64,000 bases of DNA from Candidatus Tepidiaquacella proteinivora. Lineage in GTDB: Bacteria; Bacteroidota; Ignavibacteria; Tepidaquicellales; Tepidaquicellaceae. Position numbers and translations under genes: made by a program. This document shows, piece after piece, positions 3,564-49,626 of this stretch (position 1 is its first letter; the number at the start of each line of letters is the position of its first letter). The notes below the pieces were generated by a model that worked only from the letters and a program-made list of their open reading frames with translations, did not search any database and was not told where the DNA came from. The stretch lies in the NCBI GenBank assembly GCA_013348845.1, contig CP054675.1, forward strand, positions 1 through 64,000, written 5' to 3'.

Positions 3564-6500
3564 ATCTTTCTGTTTTCAATTGCAATAATAATTTCTTTAG
3601 AGAATCCTTTGTGTTTTTCTTTCTCTTTTAAAAGATAGTTTGCTCCAAGCTCATTTTGGAGTGATGATATTTCCTTAACAGTTTCTTCCTTGCCACCAAC
3701 AGAATTTGCTAAATTAGCAATACGGCGTAGTGTATAATCTGATAGCGTACCGTAATCAATAATGTCTTCTTTCAAAGTTCTTAAAAAGTCCAGGTAGGGT
3801 AATAATTCGTTAAATGGATTTTTCAAAAAAGTGTTAATATTATTTAGTGCCTTTTGTTCAAGGCTTTGTTCGCTTTTTGGCACATGGTAATGCTCTTTAA
3901 ACTTTTTTACGATCTCATAAAAATCCCAAAAACCTTCACTCAATGGAAGTCTTTCTTCATCTTTCCTACAAGCAATTCTGTCAAAGACCTCCTCAAATAT
4001 GGGCTGATATATCTGCTTGTCATTATCATATTTTAAAACATGAATATAAAGCTTTCCTTTTTTTAAAAAAACAAGAAGCTCATTTTTATCACTTTTTTTG
4101 GCAACTTTTATGCGGTTGGGATAGTTTTTTAGCTCTTTTATGAGTTCAGGATTTTCTTCTAAGATTTCTAAATATTTTTTTAATACTTTAGTATAAAAGC
4201 TTTCTTCTTCAAGGGCATCTGGATTTTGTTGAATTCTCTCAAACAATCCTGATGGGGTTGGTTCCTCATCAACATCAAAGATTTTTGCATCTTCGCCAAG
4301 AGTGTTATGGATTAAAAACATTTTATTGCTTGCAATTTCACGTGATTTTACTAATTCCGCGCCCTGTTCAGTAGGGAAGAAATTCACAATATACAGTTCA
4401 TCAAAAACTTTTTTGCTGATACGATTGATACGACCAACACGCTGTATTACACGGACAGGATTCCACGGTATATCATAATTAATAACCATGCCAGCGCGGT
4501 TTAAATTAAAGCCCTCAGAAATTCGATCGGTTGCAAGCAGTATGTCGTATTTATCTTCTTGACCTTTGTACGATGCATCAAAGTTTTTGTTTATCTCAGA
4601 TATTTTTGATTGAGCAAGATCACCGCCAACTGTAAGTACTCTATTGTTGAAATGCTTTTCTAAAATTGGTTCAAGATATTTAACGGTATCAAGGTATTCT
4701 GAAAATATTACGACTTTTCTTTTAGGTTCATCATTTTTGAAATTTTGATTTAATATATCTTTTAAATTATTAATTAAGCAATTAACTTTTGGATCTTCTT
4801 CTACAAGGTCTAAATTTGAAAGTTTGGTTAGGATTTTATTGAAAAGTTCTTGATCAGATTCTATGTTGGCAATAAATTCATCTTTATATCGAAATTCATC
4901 AACTTCATATATTTCGTGATTTTTAGGGTATTCACCTTTTCTAATTTTATCTGAATATTCTTGAAGATATTTTTCAATTTCATCTATTTCGAGGTCATAG
5001 ATCTTTTCTAATAGAGAACGGTCAAGTATGTATTTACCTGTTTTAGTAATAAATTGCAAGGCATCTTCTGTAACCTTTTTAAAATTCATAATGCTTTGTT
5101 TAAAAGAGCCGAATGAGCTTTCAAAGCGTTTAACGAGCAATCGGCGCATAAAATCATACAAGTTGCGCTGTTGAATAAATTGGAAATTTTCTTTCTTCTC
5201 AAGTCCTTCTTCGTCAATCTTCATTCGATCAATCTTGTATTCAAAAGGCCTGTAGATAGCACCTTTAAATTTTCCGCCTTCATCAGGGTCGCCAAAATAA
5301 TCACTAATGACTTTATCATAAAATTCAGACTGCTCTTTTGTTAATTCAAAGAACCATTCTGTAGGGTTTTGAACTTTTGATAAATTTTTAACTTCATTGT
5401 TATATAATGGATTTCCCTGCAAATCAAGGCGATTGCGTCTAATAGTAACAGGCTCTATGACATCTCTGATTTGTTTTGCAAGATAATGGGCACGACTCTT
5501 TACTCTTTTCAAATCTATTGCTTCTTCTTCAAAAAGAACTTTATAATAGTCCTTTGCTTTTTTTATTTTTGAAGGAAGCTTAGAATTATGATACTTACTT
5601 ATATAGCTAAGCTTATCAAAAGTTCCTTTGAAAGTTCTGAATTTATCAACAAGGTTATTTTCAAGAGTAATTGATGACTTCTTAGGAACAATAAATAATT
5701 TTAATAAAGACAGAATATCGGCCGGTTTATTATTAAAAGGTGTTGCTGTAAGTAAAATTATTATTTTACCACGACAGATATTTTTCAAATATTCATAGCT
5801 CTTTGTATCCTGGTTCCTGAATCGGTGGGCTTCATCAACAATAACAACTTCAAAATCTTTTGCTTTGTTAACATATTCGGCTACATTTTCTAAATCACCT
5901 AACGAACGCACCTCCCAGTCATATAATCCAAAATCTTCCGTATATTTCGACCAACCCGAATTTTTATTTTTATCGCCAATAATCCCCGGTGGGCAAATAA
6001 CAATTCCACGTTTTTTTAATTCTCTTGCCACAGCACAGGCAATAATTGTCTTGCCAAGTCCTACAACATCGGCGATGATAACACCATTGTTTTTTTCTAT
6101 TATTGCAAGTGCCTGTTTAATTGCATCAATTTGATATTGATAAGGTGTATAATCAGCTTTTTCTAATAATCTTTTAATAGAATTTTCATTACCTCTTTGT
6201 TCATACGAATCAATATAAGTTTTTAATACTAGAACAAATGCTTCAAAAGGAGTTATCTCTTTTACAAGAGTCTCTGTTTTGATTACTTCAATGAGTTTTT
6301 GCTTAAGCTCATCTATTTCAGTAATTTTTACTGCTCTATTCCATAAATCATCAAAATACTTTTCTGCATCTTCAAAACCATAATCGCTTATTTCTACATT
6401 AAATTCATTTTGTGTAGTTATACCCGATTTAGTAAGATTACTGCTACCTGTAATAAAAAGATTCTTTCGTCCTACCTGACTTTCCTCTAATTTAAATAAG

Positions 6501-37121: not shown

Positions 37122-37125
37122 ATGA
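36964..37125 (+). CDS. Possible leader peptide upstream of the giant gene
   Basis: This is a 53-codon frame (starting MSNQHNANIYWKKVSSLF, ending NLKLITL). Its TGA stop overlaps the giant gene ATG as ATGA. It has a basic, hydrophobic make-up, and its start lies on the predicted transcription start. There is no ribosome binding site, so chance is the likelier explanation. Confidence 0.2.
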   Translation: MSNQHNANIYWKKVSSLFLIKWYAVISGDILYLKKKIQSNFYKLFFNLKLITL

Positions 37126-40100
37126 AAAAAATCTTCCCTTTACTCGTCAGTTTTATTCTATTACTGATTTTATCAGTAGGGTTTTCACCGGAGCCAGTCA
37201 CTTCCGGTGTCGATTTATCTTCCCAATATGTTATTGATAATCCGAGTGGTGATAAAATTTCAAGGTCGGGAGATTTCAGAGTGTATTATGTCCAGACTTC
37301 TTTTGAGGAAACTTCATTTCCACCCCCGGGATGGACTGATACTGCAATTAGCGGTTCTACTATCTGGGACAGGGTTACAGTAAGTTCTTATCCTTCAGGG
37401 GTCTATCCGAAGACGGGTACTTATATGGCAAGATATTATTGCTGGGGCTCTCCGTCAGGGTATATTGCAAATTTAATTACTCCTTCTTTTGATTTATCAA
37501 GTGCTGGTGGTAATGCTGTAGTTGATTTCTGGATGTACAGAGAAAATGGTTATGCAGGAACTTATTTTGATACTCTTGCAGTCTGGGTAAGTACAACTAA
37601 ATATACTCATACAGGCGCAACTTTACTTGCAAAGATTTCAAGAGTATATTCTCCTGCAGGTTGGTATAACTTTGTTTTACCAATTCCTTCAAGTTATAAC
37701 GGAACTGTTAATTATGTAATATTTCAGGCATTGAGTGGATACGGTTACGACCTGCATATTGATGATATCAGAATTGGAGTACCAGACCCGATGTCATTAA
37801 CTTCCTGTACCAATACTCAAATTACAGGAGGGGTATTAGTTAATTCAATTAATAATCCGATTCTCAGGATTAATGTTGCTGTTTCCGGTTCTTTAAATCC
37901 ATTTAATATATCTTCTTTTAAGTTTACAACAACCGGAACAACCAATCCGGCAACAGATATCAGGAATGCGAAAGTGTTTTTCACCGGAAACAATCCTGTA
38001 TTTTCAGCTTCTTCTCAGTTTGGAACACCTGTGCAATTCCCAAATGGTGTATTTTATATAACTGGTTCTCAGACTTTAGCTGAGGGAAATAACTACTTTT
38101 GGTTAACTTATGATATCCCATCTGGCGCTACAAATGGAAATTATGTCGATGCTACCTGCGATTCTGTTACAGGCAGTGGCGCAATGGGTACTGTACAACC
38201 TGTACCGCCAAATCCGGCAGGGAATAGGCAAATTGTTGGTCCTTTGATTGGTGATTATGTGATAGGTCCTTCAACCAATGATAATCCTGACAGCGATTAT
38301 CCAAACTTTACTTCCGCAATTCAGGATCTTATCAGCAGAGGTGTTAGTGGTGCTGTAACCTTCCATGTTAAACCTGCTGTGTATGGTACTACTACAGGAA
38401 CAGAAGTCGATAGTATGCTCACATTTACACCGGTAAATGGAGCAAGTACAACCAATACAATTACATTTAAAAAGAAATCAGATTTATCAGGTGAAGTTTG
38501 GGTTGAAAGATATGGTACAACCGGTACTACAGATTATATAATACAATTAGCTGGTACTAAATATTTTACATTTGATTCTATCAATGTAAGACAAAAAGAT
38601 ACAGCGGTTTACAATATGGTTGAAAGGGGATATGAGGTTACTAACCCGGTTGTGAATGTTGGAGCCCAATATAATACGATTCGAAATTGTAAAATCTATT
38701 TGAAAGGTACTAACACTAACACAAGAGGTATAAACCATTATAATTCAACTACTCCTACATTAATTGCAGGAACTAACTCGGATAATACTTATGCTAATAA
38801 CCAAATTTTAAACGCAAGAACAGGTATATATGTTTATGGTTATGCAGCACCATCTCCATACTCATTATATGATAAGAATAATGTTATTATGGGTAATACC
38901 ATTACAGGTGTTGGCACCGGTGGTGGTACTGTGTCTGCTTATGGTATATATAGTTATTATCAGGGTTCAACTTTTAGAATTTTAAATAATACAATTACTG
39001 GTGCTCCTGATAATGCATATACTTTTTATGGTATTTTAAACTCTTATGGCTATGACCAGAATATTGATATTGTAGGTAATACAATTAATGCTGGTTATAA
39101 TGCAAATTTTATTTTCTATGGTATATATGCATACTATACAGGTGCATTATCCAGTCCTACAGTAAGTAATACAGTAAATATCAATAATAATAATATAACA
39201 GCAAATTTAGGTACTTCATTTTCAACATCTTTTTACGGTCTGTATGTCTATTATTGCCATGCAGATACATTAAACATAATAGGTAATTCAATACTAAATA
39301 CAAATATCCCCGGAACAGGAACAGCATATCTAAATTATATCTATTACTGGGGTAATAACCTTAACTTTGGTAATAATAACTATAATAATATTTACAGAGC
39401 AAGTTCTGGGGCTACATATCCCGCATATATTTATTATTCAAACTGGGAATATCCGAAATCTAAGATTTATGGCAATAATTTCAATAATATTCGTTCCGCA
39501 GGTGGTGTAATATATGGCTTGTATCATTATGGAAGGCCAAGTGAAACATCTTATATTTATGATAACAACCTTACAAATTGGGTTACCGGAACCGGTTCCT
39601 TTATTTATGGATTATATAATGCTAATTCGTTTAATACTTATATATACAATAACCTGATTAATAATCTAAGAGATAGCGCAGCTACGAGTGGATATATTTA
39701 TAACATTTATCAGGTAAGTGGTACGAATAGCTATTATTATAATAACTTTATTGCAAATTCCCGTGCAAATTCTTCATCAAGCAATCTTGCGAATATAGGC
39801 TTTTATATCGGAGGCGGAACATTTAGTGGTATTTATTACAATAGTATATATTTAGCAGATACAAGTACAAGTACTTCGTATGGAAGTGCAGGCTTATATC
39901 TTGGAGGCAGTTATTATACGGAATTAAGAAATAATAATATTGTTAATATTTCTAAACCAGGAAATGGTGTTTATGCTGCGAAAACCTGTGGTATTAGATT
40001 CGGAGCGACAACATATCTACCATATTATACTTTATATTCCGGTAATAATAACATTTATTGTGGTCCGACTTCAGATACGGGCCGTGTCATTTATTATGAT

Positions 40101-43100
40101 GGTCCAAATCGTTTCTTTACTTTACAGTCATATAAGAATTTTGTTACACCAAGAGAACAAAGTTCTATTTCAGAAATGCCTGTATTTGTTAATGCGCCGG
40201 CAGGTGATTTACATATAAACGGAGCTACTCCAACATTACTTTATAATGGCGCTCTTGCTGTTGCTCCACCTTATGCACCTATTGCCATTACTACAGATAA
40301 GGATGGTAATACAAGGAGTGATCCATTTGCAGATATTGGTGCTGATGAGTTTACCGGTTCTATGTCAACCGATGTTATTCAGCCAACTATAGTATATGAA
40401 AAATTAGGTAATGGCGCTCTTGGTACAAGCAGAACCTTTAATAATGTATTGGTTTTAGACCCAAGTGGTGTTAATTCAACTACTTTTGCACCAAGGGTTT
40501 ACTATAAAAAATCAACTAATGCAAACACGTTTAATGATAATACATCTTCTACCGATGGTTGGAAGTTCGCAACAGGTACGGCAGGAAGTGGCGGATATTA
40601 TTCATTTACAATTGATTATACAAAATTATATGGTGGTTCTGTTTCTTCTGGTGATGTTATTCAATATTTTGTAGTTGCGCAAGACCTTGCTTCTACACCA
40701 AATGTCGGAATAAATGCCGGTGTATTCGCAACTACACCGACAAGCGTTGCACTCGTCGCCGGAAACTTCCCAATCACAGGTACAATAAATTCATATACAA
40801 TTACAACCACAAGTCTGTCAAGTACTGTTAATGTAGGTACAGGGCAAACATATACTTCACTTACAGGTCCTTCCGGATTATTCTATGCAATAAATACCGG
40901 AGTACTTACGGGAAATCTTAATGTAGTTATAACAAGTGACATTATTGAGCCTGGCACATATCAATTACAAAACTGGTCTGAACAATATGCTCCTGCAACT
41001 TATAAGATTACAATAAGACCAGATGGAACAACAATCAGGAATATTTATGGCTGGGTTGCAAACACAAATGGTATGATTAGATTGTCCGGTGTAAATAATG
41101 TAACGATTGATGGTAGTTATGGTGGAAGCGGTAGATATCTCCGTTTCGCAAACAGAACTGCGGGTTCATATCCAACAATTTCATTTATAAATGGATGTAC
41201 TTATGATACTCTTAAAAACTGTATCGTCGAAGGTGTTACGACGAGTTCGACTTATGGTGTTGTATTCATAGGTGCTGGAATTACTACATTCCCGCAACAA
41301 GCAAATAATTACCTTACAATTTCAGGAAACCTGATTAGGGATTTAAGCGACTCTCTCGCAGTGTCTCCTTATACCGGTATTAGTAACTATGGCTCTGCTG
41401 TACCTGTGCTGAATAGTTACAATACAATTGTTAATAATGAAATTATGAACTGTTCTTACTATGGTATATATATGACTTCCACAGGTAGTGGCGATGGTTG
41501 GGTTATAAAAAATAATAGTATTTACTATGTTGCAGGTACATATACTTATCCTTTAACAAATACCTCCTGGTATGCAATGTACATATATCCAACTTATTAT
41601 GGTAATGGTTATATAATTGATAGTAATTATATTGGTGGTTCACAGGCGCAGGCAGGTGGTTCATATATGTTAACTAAGGGATTATTCCACGGGATTTATG
41701 CCGGGCTTGGTTACAATGCAGAATCCCATATCAGAGGAAATGTAATAAAGAATATCAGGTCAACGTATATTACTCCTTCAACAACTACATATTATGGGAT
41801 AGCTGGTCTGCTGGGTTGGTTGAATATATCCGGAAATACAATAGGAAGTTCTGATACTACGCAACGATTACAAATGAATGGAATTTTCAGAGGTATATCA
41901 GCAAGTCCATCATATTATGCCGGAACTCCGACATTAAAGGTTAATAATAATATAATTAACAATATCTGGACACGACCTGACTCAACATTTGCAACTCTCT
42001 CAGGTACATTTAATAGATACGGAATAGTTGTTGGCGGCTATCTACCGACTGAATGTAAGAACAATGTAATTATGAATATGTTATCCTGGCAAAGCCCCGG
42101 AACTACTTCTTATCACTGCTTCCATATGGGAATATTGCCAAATGTTTATAATAAGGTCAATGTCGATAACAATGTTGTTTATAATATAGCAAATTTAGTT
42201 ACTACTGCACCAACGGGAACCGGAAGAATACTTGTATATGGTATTCAACCGATTTATCTTGGTGATGGTTCTACGGTATCCGGTAACAGAATATCAAAAA
42301 TATATTCTTCAACTGTAAATGCAAACGGAGACCTTATTATTGGTATATATAATGCTGCTTCATATCATGGTATGACCACAATATTGGCAAACAATCAGAT
42401 TTCAATGCTTGATAATAGCGGAACCTGGGCAAATGTTGTCGGGGTAATGGATGTTAGTTCCTATGGTGGTTACTGCAATTGGTATTATAACTCTATCGTG
42501 TTAGGTGGTGCTTCCGGTAGTGGTAATCTATACAATTCTTATGCATATTATCGTGCTACAACCGCAGGGCTTGCCACTTATAGCATATTGAGAAACAATA
42601 TTTTATATAATATGAGAACAGGTGGATTAAACAACCACCTTGCTACTGGTGTTCAATCCGGTTCTCTTGACCAATTTTCACAGCTTTATCCGTATGCATT
42701 AGCAGAAGATGAAATGTTACCAAGTTCAATGAAAGGTGGCGAAAGAGGAACAAGTCCATACTTCCTGAGCGATTACAACTTATTCGTTTCTACAAGTTCT
42801 AATATGATTGGCGATTGGTATGGTACATTCTATAATTTGAGCGGTTGGAAGACTGCTTCCGGAGAAGATGCAAATAGTCTGGCAGATACAGTTGCAAATA
42901 CTCCTGCCTCACAACTATTCAGAAACTATCTAAACGCTGATTTAAATATTGATACAACGCAAGCAGCTTCAATCCTTGTTGCGAAGCGTGGTCTTGGAAT
43001 TAGCGGAATAGATAAAGACTTTAATGGATATCCGAGAAGTGAAACGGGAGCAACCTGTATAGGTTCTCATGAATTTAATTATACAAAACCAATTGTTCCG

Positions 43101-46100
43101 ACTTTGGTTTCACCATCAAATGGTGCTACAGGTATTCCAATCCCTGTTGTTATGAAATGGAATAAGACAGTCTTTGCTTCCGGTTATAATTTACAGATTT
43201 CAACAGATTCAACATTTGCTACCACAGTGAAAGATACGGTGGCTTCAGATTCTCTATATACATTCTATACTGCGGTTTCCGGAACGAAGTATTTCTGGAG
43301 AGTCAGAACATATTATGCACAATATAGCCCGAGTCAATTCAGCGCTGTTTGGAACTTTACACCTCAAGCTGCAGGACCTCTTACTGGTATAAAATATATA
43401 CCGGGTGATTATCCATCTATTCCTGCGGCAATAACTGATTTGAATACTTATGGTGTTGGCACCGGTGGTGTTACTTTCAGGGTTGCGACTGGTAAAGTTG
43501 ATACGGCTGCTAATCTTGTTATTACTGCAAGAGGTTCAGCTTCCAATCCAATAGTATTTGAAAAGTGGGGTACTTTTGACCAACCACTACCAAATCCATT
43601 AATAATAGCAGCCGCCGGAACCGGTTCTATGGATGGTATTATTAAGTTCTCCGGTGTTAGTTATATTACTTTTGACGGAATTGATTTAAGGGAAAATCCG
43701 GCTAACACTACAACTACCACACAAATGGAATGGGGCTATGCATTATTAAAGGCAAGCGCTGATTCTGGTTCGCAGAACATTACTATTAAAAATTGTAACA
43801 TTACACTAAATAAAGCAAATACAAGTAGTGTTGGTATATATTCAGCAAACCATACAATTACATTAACAAGCGCTCTGACTATTACAGCATTTTCAGGAAC
43901 TAACTCTAATAATAAATTCTTTAATAATAACATAAGTAATTGCTATATTGGTATTTCTGTAGCTGGTTACAATGATGCTTCACCTTATGCTTTCTATGAC
44001 CACTTCAATCAAATTGGTAAACAGGGTGGTAATACGATCAGAAACTTCGGTGGTGGCTCAGCAACTACTTATGGAATATATTCAATATATCAGGATAGTT
44101 TAGATATCAGCAATAATAACATTGGAGGCGGTACCGGTACTACTACAACTAACTATGGTATATTTGTATCGATCTGTTACAATTCAAGCATTACAGTTTA
44201 TAATAACACGGTATCTGATACCAACGCTGTTACAACATCAGCGACTTATGGTATTGCGTTGAATAATGCAGGATATAATGGAGTTGATAATACAATAATT
44301 ATCAGAAGGAATACTGTACAGGGTATGACTTCCACCGCAGTAACGAGTGGAATACTATATGGATTCTATATATATTATACGACAAGTCTGAATTTATATG
44401 TTGACTCCAATAATTTCATCAACAACAAGTGGGGTGGAAGTACTCAAACAGCAACAGGTACAATTTACGGATTCTATGTCTATCCATATACAACAACACC
44501 GCCAGCAGGTAGTGTCGGATACTTCACTAACAATTATATGAGTGGAAACAGAAGAATACAATCTGCATTGGGTACTGGTACCTTATATGGTATGTATTTA
44601 TATTATGGACAGCAAACATTTAATGCATATAATAACACTATAGAAAACGACACACTTGCGGTAACAACCAGTGCAGCATATTATTTTTATGTTTATAACT
44701 ATTATGCAACAACAGCGAATTATTACAATAATGTTATCAGAAATCTATATAAAGGTCCCGGTAGTAGTGGAGCATTGTATTGCGTTTATATTTCTAATGC
44801 TGCCTATTCAGGAACATTTAATTATTACAATAATACAGTTGAAAACATTAATAGTGATGGTATAGGTGCAGTTTATGGTATATATAATGCTTCCGGAGCG
44901 CCAAATAAGAATTTCTATGGAAACACTGTAAGAAATCTTAAGACAATTGGAACAGGAGCAGTTTATGGTATGTATCTCTCATCCGGAACAACAGTAAATA
45001 TATATAATAATTTAGTAACGAATTTAAGAACTGGTACTGGTGCCGGATACGGTATGTATGTTGCCAGTGGAACAACTAACAATATTTATAATAATTTCAT
45101 TTCTGATATCAGGTCAGATTCATCCACAGCAGCATTAGCAATTGCAGGACTATATTTAAGTGGTGGTACTACGAATAATGTTTATTATAATACAATTTAT
45201 CTTAACGCAGAACCTTATGCAGGCTCAACATTTGGAAGCGCTGCATTATGGGCATCTACGACGCCAACATTAGATTTGAGAAATAATATATTAGTTAATG
45301 TGTCAACACCCGGACCGACAGGTGGCTTTACAGCAGTATATCAAAGAAATACAACTAATTTAGCAACTTACGCTAATACTTCTAATTTTAACTTGTTCTA
45401 TGCTGGAACTCCAAGCTCCAATAGGGTTATTTACTATGATGGGACTAACTATGATTCTACGTTGGCATTATATAAAACACGGGTAACACCAAGAGATGCA
45501 AATTCAGTTACTCAGAATCCACCATTTGTTAATGTAACGACAAGACCTTATGATTTGCATCTGGATACCGCAATAACTACAGTTGCAGAAAGTGGTGGTT
45601 CAACAATTTCTACACCAATTGCTATAACAACTGACTTCGACGGACAACCGCGATATCCAAATCCGGGTTATCCTGCGCATCCACTTTATCCACCGACAGC
45701 GCCGGATATTGGAGCAGATGAATTTGGTGGTAAACCACTTGATATTAATCCACCAAATATAAGCTACATTCCATTGTTGAATACTTCCAGCACTTCTGCA
45801 CGAACATTAACAGCAACAATAACAGACCCAAGTGGAGTACCAACTACTTCTCCCGGATGGCCAATGCTTTACTGGAAGATTAATACTGGCAGCTGGACTG
45901 CTGCAGCACCGGTAACAGTATCCTATCCACAATATACTTATCAATTCGGTGCAGGAGTTACACTTGGTGACTCTGTATTCTATTATATTGTAGCAAGAGA
46001 CAATGCAACACCTCCTAACATTGGAGCATATCCATCATTAGGTGCAGGAGGATTTACCTATGACCCACCAGCTGCAAGTATTCCACCAACAAATCCGAGC

Positions 46101-48683
46101 AGCTATAAGATTACAGCTGCACCACTTGCAGGTGATTATACGGTTGGTTTGTCATTATTTAACAGCATATCTGGTAGAAAGATATACTTCGAAAAGGTAG
46201 TTGAAAAAGTTGTGAAAGAAGTACCGGTAGAAGAAAATAATGTTGAAGAATTCATCGCAGGTAAAGGACAGGAACCAAAACCAGATGCTGCTGAACTTTC
46301 TTCACCTTATGCTGGTAATGGTAAAACCAAACTCGTTACTGTAGAAGAAGTCAGATGGATACCAATGGAAAACGGCAAAGTATATGATGGACCATTATAT
46401 GTGAAAAAAGCAGAAAGTCCTGAAATAGACTTCCCGGATGGTACGATGGGTGTTTATGCTACTATTACAGCCGCAATTAATGATTTGAATTTAAGAGGTG
46501 TTAGTGCTAACACAAGATTCTTATTAGTGGATACTTCTTATTCTACCGGAGAAACATATCCGATAGTAATTAATGTACAAAATATTAATATGCCTGGCAG
46601 TACGAAGACTGTAACCATCAAGCCGAATACTGGTGTTAATGCAACTATAAATGGTGTCGCTCCATCAACTCAAATATTCAAGATACTAACCAGTTATGTT
46701 ACAATAGATGGTTCCAATACTGTAGGAGGAACTACAAGGAATCTTTCTATTATTAACTCAAGCACTACTTCTCCACAGGTAATTGTAATTGGTTCAACCG
46801 GAACAACGCCAATTACAAATGTAACAGTTAAGAATTGTGAAATTACCAATGGTATCAATTCAAGTAGTGCTGTTATAGTTTCTGATGGTACTGCACCCGG
46901 AACTGCTGGTTGGTTTAATGATATCAGTATTTTGAATAATAAAATTAATTTAGCATATATTGGAATATATTCAATAGCAACAGTTGCAACAGGAAACGGA
47001 AGCGGATTGAATATTAGTAATAATACTTTTGATAACCCATTATATCCGGTCAGGCTGACCAAAATATATGTACAGGGCGTAGATGGTGTAACCGTTTCTA
47101 ATAACTTTATTGGAAACGATTCTAACGGCGTAGATGCATCTAATATAACTGGTATCTGGTTCGCTACAGGAACAAAGAATGGAATAATTTCCGGAAATAC
47201 AATATCTAATATTGCAGGCTATGGTCCACCAAGAGGAATTGCAATTTCAACAGGTATTGCAAATGCAAATATTTCAATTACAAAGAATACTATAACTGGT
47301 ATTAGAACTGCTTATAGTGGACCACCATACGGAATTTATGTTTTCAGTACAACCTCAGGTGTGAGCATTACTAAGAATAAGATAGGCAATCTATTAAATA
47401 GAAATACCGGTGGTTATGGTGCAAGAGGAATTAATATCGCTTCAACTGTGACACCCGCTAATATTGAAATTATAAACAACTTCGTATGGAATATTGTGGC
47501 AACATCTGATGCATCAGTTACATACTGGGGTATTGGAATTGCTCTTGATGCAACTGTTAGCGGAATTACCGTTTACTTTAATTCTGTCAATTTATACGGT
47601 ACATATCCTGGCTATTCATCATCTACAGTACACTCTGCGTTCTATGCATCGTCAGGAATTTCAGGATTGAATCTAAGAGATAATATATTTGTGAATAAAT
47701 TTGATAATACTTCAAGTACTACGGATAAGAGTTACGCGATATACTGTGCCGGAACTAACACAGCATTTACAGATATTAACTACAACGATTATTATGTATT
47801 CGGAACACCAGGAATATTAGGATACCTGGGTGGAGATAAGACAACACTTGGAGACTGGAAACTTGCAACATTGAAAGACTCAGCAAGTATTTCCGGTGAT
47901 CCAGTATTCGTAAGTGATTCCAACTTACATATTGACTCGACGCAGGTATCACCTGTTGGTAATGCAGGACAATATATTTCAACAGTTCTTGATGATATTG
48001 ATGATAATCCAAGAAGTACATCAACCCCGGATATCGGAGCAGATGAATACAATTACTCAACCGCTGTGTTGACTTTGAACCTGAAAGTATATCTTGAAGG
48101 ATTCTGGAATGGTACAACTCAGGTTGTTGATACTGCGAAGATTTATCTTGCAAACAGTAGCTCACCTTATGCATTTGTTGATTCACAGAAAGTAGTGCTT
48201 TCAAGTGCAGGAACAGCCACAATGAACTTTAACAAAACCTCTGGTAACTACTATATAGTTGTTATGCATAGGAACCATCTTGAGACCTGGAGTAGATTGC
48301 CACAGGCATTCGTTGCAGGAACACCATTAAGTTATGACTTTACAACGGACTCTGCAAAAGCTTATGGCTTTAATATGAGAAAGGTAGGAAGCGTATGGAC
48401 ATTATATGCAGGAGATGCAAATCAGGATGGTGCAGTTGACGCACTTGATGTTGCACTATTCATTTCACAATTTGGTAACTTTGGTTACTTAAGTTGTGAC
48501 TTCAACGGTGATGGTGCGGTTGACGCACTTGATGTACCAATCTTAATTGGTGATTTCGGAATGACAAAATCCGTACCAACAGTAATGATACCACCAGACC
48601 CAGGATTAAGGTCCAAGATAATCGAAGAGATAAAGAAAAAATTCGAAACCCCAAAGAGAGAATTTAAGCAAAATTCTGATTAA
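37122..48683 (+). CDS. Giant secreted beta-helix protein (3853 residues) with C-terminal dockerin
   Basis: The signal peptide covers about residues 1-28. A jelly-roll choice-of-anchor/MAM-like domain lies at about 57-225 (FEETSFPPPGWTD to DLHIDDIRIG). A BNR-neuraminidase-type N-terminal domain follows at about 230-370. Four pectin-lyase/NosD-type beta-helix modules come next (about 390-1077, 1224-1985, 2086-2866, 3107-3643), each ending in a GADEF-, GADEY- or GSHEF-type marker. Ig-like domains lie at about 1087-1217 and 2870-3010, and an FN3 domain at about 1990-2087. A charged linker occupies about 3013-3106, followed by a beta domain. A dockerin with two Ca-binding loops (DANQDGAVDALD and DFNGDGAVDALD) lies at about 3764-3815. 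A basic tail ends the protein, with no T9SS sorting domain. The helix modules are full of N-N and Y-G-I-Y turns. A surface adhesin or glycan-binding role is likely, and no catalytic site was found. Its G+C is well above the flanks. Confidence 0.93.
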   Translation: MKKIFPLLVSFILLLILSVGFSPEPVTSGVDLSSQYVIDNPSGDKISRSGDFRVYYVQTSFEETSFPPPGWTDTAISGSTIWDRVTVSSYPSGVYPKTGTYMARYYCWGSPSGYIANLITPSFDLSSAGGNAVVDFWMYRENGYAGTYFDTLAVWVSTTKYTHTGATLLAKISRVYSPAGWYNFVLPIPSSYNGTVNYVIFQALSGYGYDLHIDDIRIGVPDPMSLTSCTNTQITGGVLVNSINNPILRINVAVSGSLNPFNISSFKFTTTGTTNPATDIRNAKVFFTGNNPVFSASSQFGTPVQFPNGVFYITGSQTLAEGNNYFWLTYDIPSGATNGNYVDATCDSVTGSGAMGTVQPVPPNPAGNRQIVGPLIGDYVIGPSTNDNPDSDYPNFTSAIQDLISRGVSGAVTFHVKPAVYGTTTGTEVDSMLTFTPVNGASTTNTITFKKKSDLSGEVWVERYGTTGTTDYIIQLAGTKYFTFDSINVRQKDTAVYNMVERGYEVTNPVVNVGAQYNTIRNCKIYLKGTNTNTRGINHYNSTTPTLIAGTNSDNTYANNQILNARTGIYVYGYAAPSPYSLYDKNNVIMGNTITGVGTGGGTVSAYGIYSYYQGSTFRILNNTITGAPDNAYTFYGILNSYGYDQNIDIVGNTINAGYNANFIFYGIYAYYTGALSSPTVSNTVNINNNNITANLGTSFSTSFYGLYVYYCHADTLNIIGNSILNTNIPGTGTAYLNYIYYWGNNLNFGNNNYNNIYRASSGATYPAYIYYSNWEYPKSKIYGNNFNNIRSAGGVIYGLYHYGRPSETSYIYDNNLTNWVTGTGSFIYGLYNANSFNTYIYNNLINNLRDSAATSGYIYNIYQVSGTNSYYYNNFIANSRANSSSSNLANIGFYIGGGTFSGIYYNSIYLADTSTSTSYGSAGLYLGGSYYTELRNNNIVNISKPGNGVYAAKTCGIRFGATTYLPYYTLYSGNNNIYCGPTSDTGRVIYYDGPNRFFTLQSYKNFVTPREQSSISEMPVFVNAPAGDLHINGATPTLLYNGALAVAPPYAPIAITTDKDGNTRSDPFADIGADEFTGSMSTDVIQPTIVYEKLGNGALGTSRTFNNVLVLDPSGVNSTTFAPRVYYKKSTNANTFNDNTSSTDGWKFATGTAGSGGYYSFTIDYTKLYGGSVSSGDVIQYFVVAQDLASTPNVGINAGVFATTPTSVALVAGNFPITGTINSYTITTTSLSSTVNVGTGQTYTSLTGPSGLFYAINTGVLTGNLNVVITSDIIEPGTYQLQNWSEQYAPATYKITIRPDGTTIRNIYGWVANTNGMIRLSGVNNVTIDGSYGGSGRYLRFANRTAGSYPTISFINGCTYDTLKNCIVEGVTTSSTYGVVFIGAGITTFPQQANNYLTISGNLIRDLSDSLAVSPYTGISNYGSAVPVLNSYNTIVNNEIMNCSYYGIYMTSTGSGDGWVIKNNSIYYVAGTYTYPLTNTSWYAMYIYPTYYGNGYIIDSNYIGGSQAQAGGSYMLTKGLFHGIYAGLGYNAESHIRGNVIKNIRSTYITPSTTTYYGIAGLLGWLNISGNTIGSSDTTQRLQMNGIFRGISASPSYYAGTPTLKVNNNIINNIWTRPDSTFATLSGTFNRYGIVVGGYLPTECKNNVIMNMLSWQSPGTTSYHCFHMGILPNVYNKVNVDNNVVYNIANLVTTAPTGTGRILVYGIQPIYLGDGSTVSGNRISKIYSSTVNANGDLIIGIYNAASYHGMTTILANNQISMLDNSGTWANVVGVMDVSSYGGYCNWYYNSIVLGGASGSGNLYNSYAYYRATTAGLATYSILRNNILYNMRTGGLNNHLATGVQSGSLDQFSQLYPYALAEDEMLPSSMKGGERGTSPYFLSDYNLFVSTSSNMIGDWYGTFYNLSGWKTASGEDANSLADTVANTPASQLFRNYLNADLNIDTTQAASILVAKRGLGISGIDKDFNGYPRSETGATCIGSHEFNYTKPIVPTLVSPSNGATGIPIPVVMKWNKTVFASGYNLQISTDSTFATTVKDTVASDSLYTFYTAVSGTKYFWRVRTYYAQYSPSQFSAVWNFTPQAAGPLTGIKYIPGDYPSIPAAITDLNTYGVGTGGVTFRVATGKVDTAANLVITARGSASNPIVFEKWGTFDQPLPNPLIIAAAGTGSMDGIIKFSGVSYITFDGIDLRENPANTTTTTQMEWGYALLKASADSGSQNITIKNCNITLNKANTSSVGIYSANHTITLTSALTITAFSGTNSNNKFFNNNISNCYIGISVAGYNDASPYAFYDHFNQIGKQGGNTIRNFGGGSATTYGIYSIYQDSLDISNNNIGGGTGTTTTNYGIFVSICYNSSITVYNNTVSDTNAVTTSATYGIALNNAGYNGVDNTIIIRRNTVQGMTSTAVTSGILYGFYIYYTTSLNLYVDSNNFINNKWGGSTQTATGTIYGFYVYPYTTTPPAGSVGYFTNNYMSGNRRIQSALGTGTLYGMYLYYGQQTFNAYNNTIENDTLAVTTSAAYYFYVYNYYATTANYYNNVIRNLYKGPGSSGALYCVYISNAAYSGTFNYYNNTVENINSDGIGAVYGIYNASGAPNKNFYGNTVRNLKTIGTGAVYGMYLSSGTTVNIYNNLVTNLRTGTGAGYGMYVASGTTNNIYNNFISDIRSDSSTAALAIAGLYLSGGTTNNVYYNTIYLNAEPYAGSTFGSAALWASTTPTLDLRNNILVNVSTPGPTGGFTAVYQRNTTNLATYANTSNFNLFYAGTPSSNRVIYYDGTNYDSTLALYKTRVTPRDANSVTQNPPFVNVTTRPYDLHLDTAITTVAESGGSTISTPIAITTDFDGQPRYPNPGYPAHPLYPPTAPDIGADEFGGKPLDINPPNISYIPLLNTSSTSARTLTATITDPSGVPTTSPGWPMLYWKINTGSWTAAAPVTVSYPQYTYQFGAGVTLGDSVFYYIVARDNATPPNIGAYPSLGAGGFTYDPPAASIPPTNPSSYKITAAPLAGDYTVGLSLFNSISGRKIYFEKVVEKVVKEVPVEENNVEEFIAGKGQEPKPDAAELSSPYAGNGKTKLVTVEEVRWIPMENGKVYDGPLYVKKAESPEIDFPDGTMGVYATITAAINDLNLRGVSANTRFLLVDTSYSTGETYPIVINVQNINMPGSTKTVTIKPNTGVNATINGVAPSTQIFKILTSYVTIDGSNTVGGTTRNLSIINSSTTSPQVIVIGSTGTTPITNVTVKNCEITNGINSSSAVIVSDGTAPGTAGWFNDISILNNKINLAYIGIYSIATVATGNGSGLNISNNTFDNPLYPVRLTKIYVQGVDGVTVSNNFIGNDSNGVDASNITGIWFATGTKNGIISGNTISNIAGYGPPRGIAISTGIANANISITKNTITGIRTAYSGPPYGIYVFSTTSGVSITKNKIGNLLNRNTGGYGARGINIASTVTPANIEIINNFVWNIVATSDASVTYWGIGIALDATVSGITVYFNSVNLYGTYPGYSSSTVHSAFYASSGISGLNLRDNIFVNKFDNTSSTTDKSYAIYCAGTNTAFTDINYNDYYVFGTPGILGYLGGDKTTLGDWKLATLKDSASISGDPVFVSDSNLHIDSTQVSPVGNAGQYISTVLDDIDDNPRSTSTPDIGADEYNYSTAVLTLNLKVYLEGFWNGTTQVVDTAKIYLANSSSPYAFVDSQKVVLSSAGTATMNFNKTSGNYYIVVMHRNHLETWSRLPQAFVAGTPLSYDFTTDSAKAYGFNMRKVGSVWTLYAGDANQDGAVDALDVALFISQFGNFGYLSCDFNGDGAVDALDVPILIGDFGMTKSVPTVMIPPDPGLRSKIIEEIKKKFETPKREFKQNSD
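48428..48540 (+). repeat. Near-identical direct repeat encoding the two dockerin calcium loops
   Basis: GTTGACGCACTTGATGT occurs twice (about 48434 and 48520), each preceded by GATGGTGC plus A or G, about 86 bases apart. It encodes GAVDALDV in both EF-hand-like dockerin halves and reflects the internal duplication of that domain. Confidence 0.85.
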
Positions 48684-48694
48684 TTAATTATAAT

Positions 48695-48747
48695 AGCAAA
48701 GGGTAGCGGAATTAATATTCCGCTACCTGATTGCTCGTAAAGTTTTT
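48695..48747 (+). terminator. Hairpin terminator after the giant gene
   Basis: An 11-bp perfect stem is formed by GGTAGCGGAAT (48702-48712) and ATTCCGCTACC (48717-48727) with a TAAT loop. It is extended by AGCAA/TTGCT outer arms and followed by TTTTTT at 48742-48747. The T-run lies seven bases after the outer arms and about 14 after the main stem, so termination may be partial, allowing some reading into the next gene. Confidence 0.75.
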
Positions 48748-48801
48748 TAATGAAGAAGTTTTTAAAAATAAATATTAAATAATCAAAATAATTAAAACAA
48801 A

Positions 48802-49626
48802 ATGAAAAAATTAATTACACTGCTGCTATTAATAGCACTCTTCGTGGGGGTTGCCCACAGTCAGAAGGTTACATTTTCACTTTCAAATCCAAGAATACAA
48901 AGTGGATATTTTAAATACGATTTAATGGCAACTATTCCTTCTGGACAGGCTTGGGCTGTTGGGTCATGTAATATAAGGATAAACTTTACTTGTGTTCCCA
49001 CAGGTGCATTAACGGTAAAAACAGATAACCCTGTTGAAAATGCTAATCCTAACATTAGCGGAGCAAACGGTTATCAGAATATGACTACCACTTCGATATT
49101 AAATGGAACAGCTATTAGCTTGAATATACTTACTTTTAATACAAGTGGTTTCTATCGTTTTACACCAGGGATATATTTAATTGGTACTTTACGCTGGACT
49201 GTATCAGGAACTGTGAACAATACAGCAATGACATTCAGAGTTCCACCCGACCAGTATCCTACACTTGTATTTGATAGCTTAGTTCAGTTAGGATATCCTT
49301 CCGGCTTTAATGTGGTACAACCGACCCCAACAGGAGTTATCCAGGTTGCTAATGAATTACCGACAGAATACCAGTTATATCAAAATTATCCAAATCCGTT
49401 TAATCCTGTAACTACGATTAAATATGACATACCAAAGAAAGTATTGGTTGTAATAAAGATTTATGATATAACAGGTAGAGAAGTAGAAGAATTAGTAAAT
49501 CAGGAACAAGAACAAGGGAGATACGAAATAAGCTGGTCTGCAGATCGTCTGTCGAGTGGAATTTATTTCTACACGATACGGACAAAAGATTTCTCTGATA
49601 CAAAGAGAATGGTACTAATTAAATAA
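48802..49626 (+). CDS. Small T9SS-sorted protein with cohesin-like beta-sandwich
   Basis: This 274-residue protein has a signal peptide (residues 1-20, ending AHSQ) and an N-terminal beta-sandwich of about 160 residues. A C-terminal T9SS type A sorting domain starts at YQLYQNYPNPFNPVTTIKYD (near 193). It continues with VVIKIYDITGREVEEL, then LSSGIYFYTIRTKDF, and ends TKRMVLIK. The sandwich begins VTFSLSNPRIQSGYFKYDL. It has the strand order and a hydrophobic GIYLIGTLRWTVSG strand seen in cohesin-type domains. That similarity is weak and needs a structure comparison. It lies 118 bases after the dockerin-bearing giant gene, which itself lacks a sorting domain. The pair could therefore form a cell-surface anchor and cargo. 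The gene has its own terminator. Confidence 0.85.
   Translation: MKKLITLLLLIALFVGVAHSQKVTFSLSNPRIQSGYFKYDLMATIPSGQAWAVGSCNIRINFTCVPTGALTVKTDNPVENANPNISGANGYQNMTTTSILNGTAISLNILTFNTSGFYRFTPGIYLIGTLRWTVSGTVNNTAMTFRVPPDQYPTLVFDSLVQLGYPSGFNVVQPTPTGVIQVANELPTEYQLYQNYPNPFNPVTTIKYDIPKKVLVVIKIYDITGREVEELVNQEQEQGRYEISWSADRLSSGIYFYTIRTKDFSDTKRMVLIK

Follow-up and report, generated by a model that had tools for sequence, protein, structure and literature searches.

The first 64,000 nt of contig CP054675.1 of Candidatus Tepidiaquacella proteinivora (assembly GCA_013348845.1, positions 1-64,000; hereafter the window) contain two co-oriented genes, separated by 118 bp, whose products appear to be the two halves of a surface attachment system. 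The upstream gene encodes a giant protein of 3853 aa that terminates in a dockerin and lacks a sorting domain of the type IX secretion system (T9SS), and the gene directly behind it encodes a protein of 274 aa that carries such a domain (Table 1). The original prediction for this region (48411-49626, a stretch that begins at the first dockerin residue, G3764, and closes with the small gene) held that the other half of the small protein might be a cohesin and that the small protein might serve as the anchor of the giant one. Our analysis favours this interpretation, to which we assign a probability of roughly 0.87: the small protein is likely to be a surface receptor delivered by the T9SS, the cohesin of which binds the X-dockerin of the giant and holds the latter outside the cell.

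The C-terminal part of the small protein is recognised by Por_Secre_tail of Pfam (PF18962, residues 196-271, E-value 1.5e-11) and by TIGR04183 of NCBIfam (E-value 4.8e-12), that is, the protein possesses the C-terminal sorting domain expected of a T9SS substrate, as had been predicted. Residues ~21-183 have no match to any Pfam family, and comparison of this domain with the sequences of PDB chains, both as a single sequence and as a profile, retrieved no cohesin; fold comparison alone resolved its identity. We built an AlphaFold2 (AF2) model of the small protein from an alignment of 28 full-length homologues (mean predicted local distance difference test score [pLDDT] 85.7) and compared it to the PDB. 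Ranks 1-38 were all occupied by cohesins (Z-scores from 12.3 to 9.9), the best of which (Z 12.3; target length 146) aligned over 142 residues with a root-mean-square deviation of 3.1. These 38 structures span type I, II and III cohesins and include the non-cellulosomal cohesin of A. fulgidus (2xdh, Z 10.3). Because every one of them is a cohesin, residues 21-183 are predicted with high confidence to adopt the cohesin jelly-roll fold, so that what was initially a weak pattern match is now backed by a structural model. A fold of another kind, which would have counted against the original prediction, was not obtained. Foldseek, run with the two-domain model, also placed a type II cohesin first, followed by cohesins mixed with other two-domain matches; the second-look structural alignment is the stronger evidence for the fold. 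The sorting-domain part of the same model has PorU among its matches, aligning with the C-terminal portion of that protein (6za2; Z 8.8, 22% identity).

The Pfam cohesin profile PF00963 does not match the small protein, and we therefore refer to a cohesin-fold domain rather than to a member of that family. No cohesin in the host genome exceeds the Pfam cut-off, the best score (13.4 bits) lying elsewhere in the genome. A Pfam-type cohesin as the partner of the dockerin was considered separately and rejected, since the PF00963 profile, applied to 294 genomes of the class, is silent in the host's own genus. As standard annotation fails to recognise the cohesin domain, the receptor socket has apparently been overlooked so far. 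Per-strand conservation of the cohesin is mildly higher on some of the strands expected to form the binding sheet (b3, b5 and b6) and lower on b8; we do not use it as evidence.

Aside from its C-terminal module, the giant protein contains a BNR_assoc_N domain (residues 238-353, E-value 8.8e-11) and Beta_helix regions (E-value 7.1e-8), both detected with Pfam; one might guess from these repeats that it acts as an adhesin. Dockerin_1 (PF00404) matches residues 3763-3809 above the cut-off (E-value 1.2e-7), and two complete 12-residue calcium loops, DANQDGAVDALD and DFNGDGAVDALD, can be read off the sequence, which together are the hallmarks of a type I (PF00404) dockerin. No Por_Secre_tail match was obtained for the giant with Pfam, and thus both statements previously made about this protein, the two-loop dockerin and the lack of a T9SS domain, hold. 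A feature not seen earlier is an X-type module situated directly N-terminal of the dockerin. An AF2 model of residues 3640-3853, built from 46 sequences (pLDDT 93.6, predicted template modelling score 0.82), retrieved type II X-dockerin dyads as its eight best PDB matches, all covering the whole module (Z from 13.2 to 11.5), with an unrelated ninth match at Z 7.2. The C-terminal module is predicted with high confidence to be a type II X-dockerin dyad, in which a beta-sandwich X module packs directly before the dockerin. Dockerin positions 10-11 are identical in both halves in several members (AL/AL in the giant; GL/GL, AI/AI and AT/AT in relatives), which, going by the sequences alone, would fit a two-way mode of binding.

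With cohesins as the best PDB matches of the small protein and type II X-dockerins as those of the giant, the two proteins match opposite partners in one and the same set of solved complexes, namely 4wi0, 4u3s, 3kcp, 5m0y, 5g5d, 2b59 and 5k39. The organisation of the host genome (2.40 Mb) points in the same direction. Genome-wide, PF00404 detects exactly two dockerins, at 48408 and 802108, and a search with the small protein yields full-length matches at two positions only, 48802 and 801208. Since there are only two of each, and each dockerin gene has one of these matches beside it in the same orientation, the pairing is above chance. The second dockerin protein, the only further one found in the search for such proteins that had been suggested, is a 682-aa Fn3-type protein, 54% identical to the giant over the X module and dockerin; it ends at the dockerin and lacks the charged tail that follows the dockerin in the giant. 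Nearly all of the 121 matches to the small protein in the 2.4 Mb genome are to type A sorting domains, which points to a very large set of T9SS cargo.

The arrangement extends well beyond the host. Of the 294 class genomes, 21 have a match to the cohesin profile and 104 to the X-dockerin profile; the search for related loci returned mostly sorting-domain relatives. Within the first cohesin family, sampled across the family and order of the host, 28 of the 29 genes with upstream sequence to judge are preceded on the same strand by an X-dockerin located 90-364 bp upstream (domain to domain), the lone exception being a frame-broken gene in locus L193. L132:2990, at first sight another exception to adjacency, was left out of this count because its sequence suggests a cohesin-Fn3-X-dockerin adaptor that a frame break has interrupted. 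A second, divergent cohesin family (~366 aa) is homologous to the first (hhalign probability 97%, E-value 1.2e-10), and its genes likewise sit behind X-dockerin genes, sometimes as tandem copies, in relatives rich in X-dockerins. Such tandem cohesin genes behind a single X-dockerin gene are seen in L206, L210 and L213, and L247 has two nearby pairs. The two proteins also co-vary: across 23 pairs, cohesin and dockerin distances are correlated (0.86), and the partial correlation is 0.50 when the distances of the X module and the sorting domain are controlled for (0 of 2000 permutations). By comparison, cohesin and X module give a value of ~0, and sorting domain and dockerin one of 0.23. A cognate relationship between the cohesin and X-dockerin proteins is supported by these sequence comparisons.

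The two proteins could nonetheless be mere neighbours: the cohesin-fold protein might recognise a ligand of its own, such as a glycan or some other protein of the surface, and the X-dockerin something different. Low sequence identity to known cohesins leaves room for this, as does the fact that a fold match is no proof of function; we consider it improbable given the exact pairing in the genome, the synteny retained in two divergent families and the co-variation. Several points do weigh against a receptor role. A cohesin fold by itself does not prove dockerin binding; the domain lies below PF00963 detection and shares merely ~8-16% identity with the solved cohesins that it matches; common ancestry accounts for part of the distance correlation, which limits the weight of the co-variation; and in some relatives X-dockerins outnumber adjacent cohesins, so that pairing there is not strictly one to one. 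The proposal that the small protein anchors the giant has come through largely intact, now with folds, adjacency kept across the order and co-variation on its side, and with binding itself and surface location as predicted steps.

In the receptor reading, both proteins would be exported by the Sec pathway, as their N-termini suggest, and the T9SS, whose pore protein SprA is encoded in the host genome, would sort the small protein to the surface through its C-terminal domain. There its cohesin would bind the calcium-loaded dockerin, as the folds, the pairing and the co-variation indicate, and the giant would be retained on the surface, a T9SS sorting domain standing in for the cell-wall anchor that clostridia use. 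The passage of the giant across the outer membrane is a further matter. Because the cargo itself lacks a sorting domain, we propose that its partner might also act as a secretion adaptor, binding the giant in the periplasm and carrying it through the T9SS pore. A sorting domain is found in none of the 91 non-redundant X-dockerin frames, even though the host genome encodes SprA and has about 120 sorting-domain matches, and in 44 of the 57 cohesin frames, most of the others being truncated by the end of a contig or locus, frame-broken, or adaptors that themselves bear an X-dockerin. The position of the partner gene directly downstream of the cargo gene and the size of the giants (2000-3900 aa), for which no other outer-membrane route is visible, agree with such a role. 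The cargo may, however, cross by another route, and the open-access literature that we searched offered no usable precedent for T9SS co-export via a sorted partner; we regard the adaptor role as possible, at somewhat less than even odds. Broader still, and put forward only tentatively, two-part display might be general in T9SS-bearing Bacteroidota and their relatives, with X-dockerin proteins carried across the outer membrane and held by a cohesin protein with a T9SS signal, the T9SS exporting the cargo indirectly.

The gene contents of relatives raise the question of whether the pair belongs to a true cellulosome-like multi-enzyme complex. The X-dockerin cargo of relatives comprises Fn3 and Ig-like proteins as well as enzymes, among them a GSDH-type dehydrogenase and, in one operon, a subtilisin, an M14 carboxypeptidase and a protein of the endonuclease/exonuclease/phosphatase family. 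This operon (L246, 1029-14183) consists of four consecutive X-dockerin genes, the other being of the sortilin type, and adjoins the gene for a 1244-aa sorting-domain protein. Moreover, proteins with both a cohesin and an X-dockerin exist (L150, L151 and L057/L152), and the gene row of L150 (cargo, adaptor, small X-dockerin, cohesin-sorting-domain protein) resembles the tiers of a cellulosome. These adaptor-like proteins, which have the cohesin at the N-terminus and the X-dockerin at the C-terminus, are located at 5733-7799 in L150, at 6547-8472 in L151 and in a 628-aa frame of L152. For the host itself a multi-enzyme complex is very unlikely: the genome has only two X-dockerin proteins, neither with a recognised enzyme domain, and the receptors bear one cohesin each, in place of the multi-cohesin scaffoldin and several dockerin enzymes that define a cellulosome.

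Outside the class, the X-dockerin profile matches another 14 genomes of the phylum sampled, in G328, G428 and G488 with its dockerin half only. Several of these loci have X-dockerin genes followed by genes for sorting-domain proteins with similar N-terminal domains, which match the cohesin profiles in L240 and L243. The same gene order, with cohesin-like N-termini, is seen in L232, L233, L235, L236 and L242. A candidate third cohesin family (L232, L233, L235 and L236) reached an E-value of 0.025 in profile comparison, and we therefore do not claim these domains as cohesins.

Table 1. Coordinates of the gene pair and its parts in the window.
Feature	Position	Strand	Basis or remark
Giant gene, 3853 aa (signal-peptide-like N-terminus, BNR_assoc_N, right-handed beta-helix repeats, C-terminal X-dockerin)	37122-48683	+	Open reading frame
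X module, giant residues ~3650-3763 (~115 residues)	48069-48410	+	Predicted beta-sandwich packed on dockerin
Dockerin, giant residues 3764-3812	48411-48557	+	PF00404, AF2, fold search
Dockerin calcium loops	about 48414-48449 and 48498-48533	+	Sequence
Charged C-terminal tail of giant	48558-48680	+	Predicted helix at about residues 3827-3841 (model secondary structure)
Hairpin between giant and small genes	48702-48727	+	Intergenic RNA fold, -29 kcal/mol, z -5.4 (strong)
Small-protein gene, 274 aa	48802-49626	+	Open reading frame
Putative signal peptide, small-protein residues 1-20	48802-48861	+	Sequence; helix 2-15 in model
Cohesin-fold domain, small-protein residues 21-183	48862-49350	+	AF2 and PDB fold comparison
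T9SS type A sorting domain, small-protein residues 187-274	49360-49623	+	PF18962, TIGR04183, fold match to PorU

The spacer between the two genes contains a strong predicted hairpin (Table 1), which could set the ratio of the giant to the small product. Hairpin-like repeats are visible at the equivalent intergenic site in L131, L135, L137, L138 and L146, and not in L147 or L143. Promoter-like sites are no more frequent in the sequence than in shuffled versions of it.

Few open-access papers name dockerins or cohesins alongside the T9SS, the closest being a study of Ca. Stygibacter (PMC8542988). In the literature covered, which was mostly open-access, we found no description of a T9SS-sorted receptor that has a single cohesin and X-dockerin proteins as cargo, and our claim of novelty holds within that scope. 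If correct, the receptor reading extends the cohesin/X-dockerin interaction of clostridial cellulosomes to T9SS bacteria in a simple form, a receptor and its cargo, and suggests how giant surface proteins devoid of a sorting signal may be anchored. Many proteins annotated merely as containing a type A sorting domain may prove to be cohesin receptors. It also raises an experimentally tractable question, namely whether a sorted partner can bring about the export of another protein through the T9SS.

In clostridia, type II X-dockerins bind the cohesins of cell-surface anchoring proteins, as does the X-dockerin of CipA with SdbA (PDB 2b59, 4wi0 and 5k39 illustrate such pairs). The pair described here is similar in that the X-dockerin lies at the C-terminus of the large protein and the cohesin on the putative anchoring protein, with like predicted folds on both sides. 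It differs in host and anchor (a T9SS bacterium and a T9SS sorting domain), in its cargo, a giant beta-helix protein rather than an enzyme scaffold, and in a cohesin sequence that lies below Pfam detection. In Ca. Stygibacter (Cloacimonadota), a 3,755-aa scaffoldin-like protein with multiple cohesins in tandem occurs together with carbohydrate-binding modules and dockerin enzymes, and its anchoring through a conserved C-terminal domain has been inferred (PMC8542988). There, too, non-clostridial cohesins with presumed sorting-domain anchoring have dockerin partners, whereas the host studied here has a putative receptor of 274 aa with one cohesin, encoded next to a giant cargo protein. Noncellulosomal examples of both modules are known (Peer et al. 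2009, cited in PMC8542988), and the present pair resembles these (e.g., the A. fulgidus cohesin 2xdh) in placing a cohesin and a dockerin outside a cellulosome, and is unlike them in that its genes form a conserved pair that includes a defined signal for sorting to the surface. Finally, the small protein shares with other type A substrates of the T9SS the C-terminal PF18962/TIGR04183 domain, in a genome that encodes SprA; unlike typical substrates, the sorted protein here appears to be the receptor for an unsorted partner.

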